From positions 1 to 5,437 of the forward strand of contig JABIQT010000693.1 of NCBI GenBank assembly GCA_018667995.1: 5,437 bases of DNA, given 5' to 3'. The position numbers and the translations under genes are program-made. Shown one piece after another: positions 1,133 to 5,437 of the stretch. This stretch comes from Candidatus Latescibacterota bacterium (GTDB taxonomy: Bacteria > JAAXHH01 > JABIQT01). The first letter of the stretch is position 1, and each line of letters begins with the position of its first letter. The notes below the pieces were generated by a model. It had not been told where the DNA came from, did no database searches, and was given only the letters and a program-made list of their open reading frames with translations.

Positions 1133-2245
1133 CTACTTCCCTTTTCGCGCAGTAGCCACGGGAGCAACAGTGGCTGCCATAGCTCCGTTTTCTGCGCTTC
1201 CCGGGCTGGCAGACGCCTGTTCGGATTCGTCCTTCGAATTGCCCATCAGTATGTCCCGTACCTTCTTCTCGATTTCCTGGGCCATAGTCTTGTTTTCTTT
1301 GAGTAGCTTCCTCACATTTTCGCGGCCCTGCCCTAGACGCTCCCCGTTATACGAGAACCAGGTACCACTCTTGTCTATAATGCCGTTATTGACTCCGAGT
1401 TCAATCAAGTCGCCCTCTTTGGATATACCTTCTCCATAGAGAATATCAAACTGAGCATCCCGGAATGGCGCAGCCATTTTATTCTTCTTCACTGAGGCAC
1501 GCACCTGAATTCCTGCCGATGCATCATCACCCTTTATCTGGCCGATCCGACGCACCTCTATGCGAACAGAGGAATAGAATTTCAGTGCCATGCCACCGGT
1601 GGTGGTTTCTGGATTGCCATACATAACACCGATCTTAATGCGGACCTGGTTGATGAAAATAACGCTGGTCCGAGATCGGCTAATTGCGGCCGTGAGCTTC
1701 CGAAGTGCTTGTGACATTAACCGAGCTTGGAGCCCCACGTGGGAATCACCCATTTCACCCTCGATTTCCGCCTTGGGAACTAATGCCGCAACGGAATCGA
1801 TCACGACCACATCAAATGCGCCGCTCCTGACAAGGGTTTCGGCTATATCGAGCGCCTGCTCCCCCGTATCGGGCTGCGTGATATACAGATTATCGATATC
1901 TACACCCAGCCGCTTGGCATAGCGGGCATCAATAGCATGCTCCGCGTCTATAAATGCAGCGTAGCCACCCAGATTCTGGGCCTCGGCGATGATATGTTGC
2001 GCAAGTGTCGTTTTTCCAGAGGACTCCGTACCATAAATCTCAATCACGCGGCCACGGGGTATGCCACCAATCCCCAGGGCAAGATCCAGCGTGAGGGAGC
2101 CCGTAGGAATCGCCTCTACGTCCATCAGTGGATTCTCATCACCCAGACGCATGATGGATCCTTTGCCGTGCTGTCGTTCGATCTGCATGACGGCCGCACC
2201 GATCGCCTTGCTGCGTTCCGCATCGTTCGCTCGATTCTCTGCCAC
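1133..2245 (-). CDS. recA: Recombinase RecA
   Basis: RecA is the cytoplasmic ATP-dependent strand-exchange protein of homologous recombination and the coprotease that triggers LexA self-cleavage in the SOS response. The 370-residue product is full length. Walker [10 protein letters not shown] lies at residues 72-80, the catalytic glutamate of AEHA at 102, Walker B VVVIDS at 146-151, the INQVR sensor with Gln200, and DNA-binding loop L2 at about 201-215 ([11 protein letters not shown], with Tyr209 where E. coli has Phe203). The C-terminal domain [10 protein letters not shown] is at 324-333. The tail after residue 335 is Ala/Ser-rich and ends basic (ATARKGK), unlike the acidic tail of E. coli RecA. 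The start is GTG at 2245, chosen because GGGAGG stands six bases upstream and the N-terminus ([27 protein letters not shown] region) matches the family. No recX or other co-directional gene follows; etfA converges on it. A dyad in its promoter suggests SOS control. Confidence 0.99.
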
Positions 2246-2251
2246 TGGTTG

Positions 2252-2257
2252 CCTCCC
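2252..2257 (-). promoter_or_regulatory. recA ribosome binding site
   Basis: On the minus strand GGGAGG precedes the recA GTG codon with six bases between. It supports the GTG at 2245 as the true start; there is no competing ATG before residue 20. Confidence 0.85.
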
Positions 2258-2291: not shown

Positions 2292-2320
2292 ATTATACTA
2301 AACTAATGTTTAGATAACAA
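2292..2320 (-). promoter_or_regulatory. recA promoter, sigma-70 type
   Basis: Read on the minus strand, TTGTTA (2320-2315) is followed by a 17-base spacer and a perfect TATAAT (2297-2292). The expected transcription start is near 2285, giving a leader of about 40 bases before the GTG. Both boxes and the optimal spacing are seen directly. Activity and start point are inferred, and the housekeeping sigma of some FCB phyla (Bacteroidota) uses different boxes. Confidence 0.8.
2298..2313. promoter_or_regulatory. Candidate LexA/SOS operator in the recA promoter spacer
   Basis: CTAAAC and GTTTAG form a perfect 6+4+6 inverted repeat (minus strand CTAAACATTAGTTTAG) that fits inside the 17-base spacer between the -35 and -10 boxes of recA. 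The position is typical for a LexA operator. The inner AAC-N4-GTT core matches the Gram-positive box GAAC-N4-GTTC except for its outer bases, and it differs from the E. coli CTGT-N8-ACAG box. That LexA binds it is an inference; no lexA gene is in view. Confidence 0.6.
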
Positions 2321-4968: not shown

Positions 4969-5437
4969 CTATTTCACCAGTATCATCTTCTTCATATCAA
5001 CAAATGATGCCGCGGACCTGTCTAAGGGTTTCGCTGCCAGCCTGTAGAAATACAGACCGCTTGACGCGCTATAGCCTTGGCCATTGATACCGGACCAGGA
5101 TACAGTGTATCGCCCGGCCGGTTGAACACGGGACACCAATGTGATGACTTCCTGCCCAATGATATTGTAGACCTTGAGAGTGACATGGCCAGACTCAGGC
5201 AACGCATATCGGATGCTGGTGCTGGGATTGAACGGATTGGGATAGTTTTGAGTCAACGCATACGTCGTAGGCACCTGAAGCTCATCGTTAAGATCTTCGA
5301 TTCCCGTAGGTGTGATGACTGCCAGCGCCCAGAGTGAAAAATGACGAATGGTAAGTTGGGCCCTATTATTGGCAGCATCTATGACTACTTGCCCATCGGA
5401 CGGTACATTCCACGCACCCGTTTCCTCATCGTAGAAC
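4969..5437 (-). CDS. Secreted/surface protein, C-terminal part with type IX-type sorting tail (partial)
   Basis: The frame is open from the TAG stop at 4971-4969 to the window end, so the visible 155 residues are the C-terminus of a longer protein whose start is outside. A GTG at 5274 is an internal codon, not a likely start, because the frame and the domain structure continue upstream of it. Residues 1-40 look like the end of a beta-rich module (AWNVPSDGQVVID, then RHFSLWALAV, an HFS-fAl type strand seen at the ends of extracellular repeat domains). A short linker leads to the sorting tail: NYPNPFNP (64-71), IRYALPESG (75-83), VTLKVYNIIGQEV (85-97), SGLYFYRL (126-133) and MKKMILVK (148-155). 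This matches the Por-secretion / FlgD-like C-terminal domain that directs cargo through type IX secretion or a similar route in FCB bacteria. The function of the mature protein cannot be told. It converges on the TPR gene with a 123-base gap. Confidence 0.9.
   Translation of the reverse strand, partial: FYDEETGAWNVPSDGQVVIDAANNRAQLTIRHFSLWALAVITPTGIEDLNDELQVPTTYALTQNYPNPFNPSTSIRYALPESGHVTLKVYNIIGQEVITLVSRVQPAGRYTVSWSGINGQGYSASSGLYFYRLAAKPLDRSAASFVDMKKMILVK

Follow-up and report, generated by a model that had tools for sequence, protein, structure and literature searches.

The window, by which we mean the whole 5,437-nucleotide stretch of DNA analysed here, carries a recA gene on its minus strand, preceded by a ribosome-binding site and a well-formed promoter (Table 1). 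Read 5' to 3' on that strand, the promoter runs CTTGTTA-TCTAAACATTAGTTTAG-TATAATGGG; its 17-bp spacer, TCTAAACATTAGTTTAG, contains the dyad CTAAAC-ATTA-GTTTAG, which overlaps the core promoter. The sequence thus confirms an earlier note on this DNA, which had described a perfect inverted repeat in the spacer of a TTGTTA-17-TATAAT recA promoter. The dyad is the sole match in the window at two mismatches or fewer, where shuffled sequences give an expectation of 0.07, and it scores 21.3 in a leave-one-out version of the matrix described below. Across the 6.06-Mb genome there are three exact copies, against about 0.4 expected. Two of the three lie in SOS promoters, that of recA in the window and that of an imuB-dnaE2 pair (C1004), and the third (C855) lies within a coding sequence. 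The C855 copy was set aside as a chance occurrence, as was an exact or near-exact match in coding sequence at C237. Elsewhere in the window, an inverted repeat at 1010-1068 (GACCTTAATAAAGAATACCGCC...GGCGGTATTCTTTATTAAGGTC), between the convergent ends of recA and the gene at 15-998, is probably a two-way terminator, and a minus-strand frame at 4969-5436, cut by the end of the window, encodes a protein with a C-terminal sorting-type domain (YPNPFNPST...).

Table 1. Features of the recA promoter region in the window, and the gene of the box-associated small protein.
Feature	Position	Strand	Basis and remarks
recA	1133..2245	minus	370 aa, GTG start at 2245; TIGR02012 544.8 bits vs cut-off 325.3
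Ribosome-binding site of recA, GGAGG	2252..2256	minus	sequence
-10 hexamer of recA promoter, TATAAT	2292..2297	minus	sequence; relatives have TATATT or CATATT there
Extended 20-bp predicted LexA box at recA	2296-2315
Predicted LexA operator core CTAAACATTAGTTTAG, perfect 6-N4-6 dyad	2298..2313	minus	sequence; register shared by recA promoters of 15 same-order genomes
-35 hexamer of recA promoter, TTGTTA	2315..2320	minus	sequence; at the same place TTGAAA or TTGCTA in G001, G011 and G013, TTGACA in genus g3
Small-protein gene	L018:1860-2156 (G000:C722)		relatives at L316-L327

The earlier note had proposed comparing the recA promoters of close relatives, and all 15 same-order genomes that we compared have there either the dyad or a variant that keeps its register. 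Three of these promoters (G001, G011 and G013) read TTG..ATCTAAACA...GTTTAGTATATT, while those of the large genus g3 resemble TTGACACTACACAAATGTTTGGCATATT; the site always lies within the promoter spacer, and the sequence flanking it diverges. The lexA promoters of all 15 relatives have this box too, at the matching place, as in TTGACACCTAACCAAATGTTTGGTACATT (G001) and TTGACGACTAACCGTATGTTGTGTATATT (g3). The note's expectation that lexA itself would carry the box is therefore borne out in the relatives but not fully in the window's own genome, where the conserved position holds only a degenerate copy, TCCTATTCAGGCGTTGTGTA (score 0.6), with a lone right half-site, GTTTGGTA, 15 bp downstream of it. 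Either autoregulation is weaker in this genome or the site has drifted, and this degenerate copy is the weakest link in reading the dyad as a LexA operator. Over the recA and lexA sites taken together, the half-sites are AAAC, AACC, ACAC or ATAC and never GAAC, and the right halves of the box are GTTTAG, GTTTGG or GTATAG.

We trained a palindromic matrix on the recA and lexA sites only; applied to 6 Mb of random sequence, it returned about one site with a score of at least 18 and no site at 20 or above. We also searched all 16 genomes with a sequence-only model built from these sites and scored the best 150 candidates per genome, a procedure by which weak sites may be missed. The E-values of the model search were weak by themselves (0.03 to 10 per genome), so we relied on conservation and gene context. 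Refinement led to the consensus TACTAAACATATGTTTAGTA, with the core CTAWAC-N4-GTWTAG and about 13 bits per half, and the strict pattern CTAWACANNTGTWTAG occurs at eight sites in the 16 genomes, compared with none for a mirrored control. In the neighbourhoods of the model matches, 81 sites scored 18 or more, at least 63 of them outside called frames; this is a lower bound, because some recA and lexA promoters fall within frames as drawn by the crude gene caller. When 94 upstream regions of recA genes outside this lineage (80 named and 14 unnamed) were scored, none exceeded 15, indicating that the box is lineage-specific. The recA genes returned by a scan of named genomes were all distant, with identities of no more than 70%. 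The earlier suggestion that the dyad may define the box of this lineage is refined, from CTAAAC-N4-GTTTAG to TACTAAACATATGTTTAGTA.

A protein of the right kind is encoded in the same genome. The earlier note had made its proposal depend on the presence of lexA, and PF01726 has one match there (C111, 84.6 bits), in a protein that TIGR00498 names LexA, above its cut-off even though the contig ends after 119 amino acids. Every one of the 15 other genomes of the order has lexA as well, and the order's LexA proteins, when read out, have in common the recognition-helix stretch ISTRAAYDHLRAIEKKG and a VAAG cleavage site. The complete ones carry the serine in GDSM or GESM and the lysine in ATVK; this catalytic pair is readable only in relatives because the contig end cuts the lexA gene of the window's genome. 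The closest solved structures are LexA proteins, among them 3jso, 3jsp and 3k3r.

Other sites point to a predicted regulon. In the window's genome a perfect dyad, CTAAACATTTGTTTAG, with a score of 27.6, lies upstream of imuB-dnaE2, a target the earlier note had anticipated. The imuB of this pair encodes a divergent, ImuB-like Y-family protein (E 1.7e-10 to the polymerase IV model, below the cut-off of that model), and it is followed by a DnaE2-type polymerase gene whose best match is the error-prone polymerase model NF004225, again below the cut-off; a separate replicative-type DnaE is encoded at C322. A further site, TACTAAACATGTGTATAGTA (25.7), lies upstream of a gene for an Lhr-type helicase, and in both the window's genome and G013 a site precedes the gene of a transglycosylase-domain membrane protein. 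As a separate observation, the window genome's copy of this membrane-anchored transglycosylase gene (L020:1483-2217, G000:C448) contains an in-frame TAA, and the G013 orthologue is uninterrupted. Six g3 genomes (L257, L259, L263, L264, L269 and L272) have the box in front of mraZ, which opens the division and cell-wall cluster; division may be under SOS control. Relatives also have the box upstream of genes for a DUF5131 protein, Rad52, a BtrH_N-domain protein and an amidase, and between dnaN and guaA. Beside uvrA, another of the anticipated targets, the box was seen only once, in a relative, in an intergenic region shared with a second box-bearing gene. When dinB loci and the lexA2-imuA-imuB cassettes described below were checked, they were without the box, save for one site scoring 13.0 near a dinB locus of G006; its absence from such common SOS genes counts against the LexA reading. 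A weaker match upstream of nrdR-nrdJ (C33) was set aside as a probable NrdR box, as we take it to be, rather than a LexA site. Genus g3 also has repeated loci (L224, L225, L230-L232, L238-L241 and L244) with two boxes 500-590 bp apart, several of them carrying a small cysteine-rich (zinc-ribbon-like) frame; these are perhaps a damage-induced mobile element.

The box is also associated with a family of small proteins. At C722, a 99-amino acid frame has the promoter TTGACA-17-TATCTT, flanked by two weaker sites that are 22 bp apart, and clear relatives of the frame's product are encoded in 13 of the 15 other genomes. Members are 84-107 amino acids long, with the pattern MVLIYRGFEGNRVFKW...VLAWGDPEGL, and had neither a Pfam or NCBIfam match nor a meaningful PDB match. 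In all 13 members from families f1 and f3, one from the window's genome and the rest from 12 other genomes, the -10 element is covered by a box such as TGCTTATCTTATGTTTAGTA; G000, the window's genome, together with G011 and G013, has a second site over the -35 element, and the distant copy in G001 was found without a box. This conserved and new family is a candidate SOS effector.

In the sister genus g3, a second, distant lexA heads an imuA-imuB-dnaE2 cassette (L192-L203). Its promoter spacer reads CAGACAAATGTCTG or CAGACAATTGTCTG and contains a different dyad, CAGACA-N2-TGTCTG, which all 12 of the 12 g3 genomes have exactly once, at the lexA2 cassette (for example G007:C4:579838-579851). The lexA2 cassettes thus lack the first box because they have one of their own, in contrast to the imuB-dnaE2 pair of the window's genome, which carries the first box instead; the centre ACA-N2-TGT is common to both boxes. 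A match to the second dyad in G013 was discarded, since the frames around it have other functions, one being an apparent transhydrogenase and another resembling a formyltransferase gene. Taken together, we lean towards a picture in which the order, and perhaps the whole phylum, uses an unlisted LexA box, TACTAAACATATGTTTAGTA, and in which a duplicated LexA in one genus evolved the second box, with the centre ACA-N2-TGT kept, to control imuA-imuB-dnaE2, as against the first box at imuB-dnaE2 in the window's genome; the regulon would include the new small SOS protein family. If this is true, motif divergence can be seen here in the wake of a lexA duplication.

We regard the dyad in the recA promoter as the predicted operator, or SOS box, for the lineage's canonical LexA repressor, with a probability of roughly 0.93. 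The earlier note's reading of it as a LexA operator of non-E. coli type thus finds support in silico, from the presence of lexA and from the box at the recA and lexA genes of relatives and at imuB-dnaE2. A LexA dimer would bind CTAAAC-N4-GTTTAG, placing a recognition helix on each half-site. Since the space between the -35 and -10 elements is filled by this site, the bound dimer would exclude RNA polymerase and keep recA expression low. Upon DNA damage, RecA-ssDNA filaments would trigger self-cleavage of LexA at its Ala-Gly bond, and the departure of LexA would allow recA, imuB-dnaE2 and the other box-bearing genes to be expressed.

Three other explanations were weighed against this one. The dyad might be bound by a different damage-responsive repressor, either an S24/CI-type LexA-like protein resembling that of Bacteroidetes or LexA2, with the canonical LexA1 acting elsewhere. 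Bacteroidetes do have non-canonical LexA proteins that act on a similar-looking CTAA-N5-TTAG (PMC8565304), and a second LexA is present in the sister genus. The spacing differs, however, being CTAA-N8-TTAG here, and the box stands in the canonical lexA's own promoter in 15 relatives. LexA2, for its part, has its distinct dyad once per genome at its own cassette, and both the window's genome and G001 have the CTAAAC box at recA yet only one lexA match each. We therefore consider a different damage-responsive repressor very unlikely.

It is less likely still that the dyad serves an unrelated regulator of recA and merely resembles a LexA box. The nrdR-nrdJ match at C33, which may be an NrdR-box look-alike, shows that matrix matches are not proof one by one; the joint presence of the box at lexA, recA, imuB-dnaE2, rad52, mraZ and the DUF5131 gene is, on the other hand, an SOS signature. 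A palindrome that arose by chance and binds no regulator is the least credible explanation: promoter spacers are rich in A+T and short dyads occur often, but the low expectation in the window holds even with two mismatches allowed, the dyad is kept order-wide in the recA promoter while its flanks diverge, and it recurs at other SOS promoters. A LexA operator thus remains our preferred reading of the dyad.

LexA is a textbook regulator whose binding site has changed repeatedly. By 2021, 17 LexA-binding motifs had been reported (PMC8565304). A literature search conducted largely without subscription journals did not find the present box reported and, as far as sequence comparison can tell, the predicted LexA box represents a familiar type of switch in a spelling not recorded before, closest to the Firmicutes and Myxococcus boxes. 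It makes the SOS regulon of these uncultured genomes readable, with the small protein as a new candidate SOS effector.

With the LexA (Cheo) box of Firmicutes and Actinobacteria, CGAACRNRYGTTYC (Firmicutes consensus TACGAACATATGTTCGTA; PMC2248561), the box shares its palindromic form, the AAC-N4-GTT core, the AACAT-ATGTT centre, its place in recA and lexA promoters, and a canonical LexA. It differs in its halves, TAC-TA-AACAT here as opposed to TAC-G-AACAT, so that A rather than G precedes AAC and each arm gains a base; none of the Firmicutes-type recA sites that we scored with the matrix reached 11, and the GAAC half-site of GAAC-N4-GTTC is absent. With the Myxococcus xanthus box, CTRHAMRYBYGTTCAGS (PMC9705874, PMC2248561), the spacing is the same, and CTAAACATATGTTTAG fits the consensus with one or two exceptions among 16 positions, nearly all the letters at its centre being ones that the consensus allows. 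The GTTCAG right half of Myxococcus, which has C where our box has T, is absent here, and the Myxococcus site is an imperfect palindrome from a different lineage, whereas the present box is a full one. The Bacteroidetes non-canonical LexA box, CTAA-N5-TTAG (PMC8565304), has the same outer letters, CTAA...TTAG, and targets that include recA and imuB-dnaE2, but its spacing is 3 bp shorter (5 bp, compared with 8 bp between CTAA and TTAG here) and it is bound by a CI-like protein, whereas the lexA here is of the PF01726 type. The boxes of Leptospira (TTTG-N5-CAAA) and Balneolaeota (TTACACATATTTTWTACATA) are clearly different. Finally, duplicated lexA genes with separate binding sites are known from Pseudomonas putida and Xanthomonas axonopodis (PMC9578287); as in these bacteria, the sister genus has two LexA paralogues and two boxes, the second paralogue heading a mutagenesis cassette, but here CAGACA-N2-TGTCTG is the second box, and no second lexA was seen in the window's genome. 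A motif near those of Firmicutes and Myxococcus, together with a duplicated LexA whose box is half-changed, would provide a natural series for following how a regulator and its site change together.
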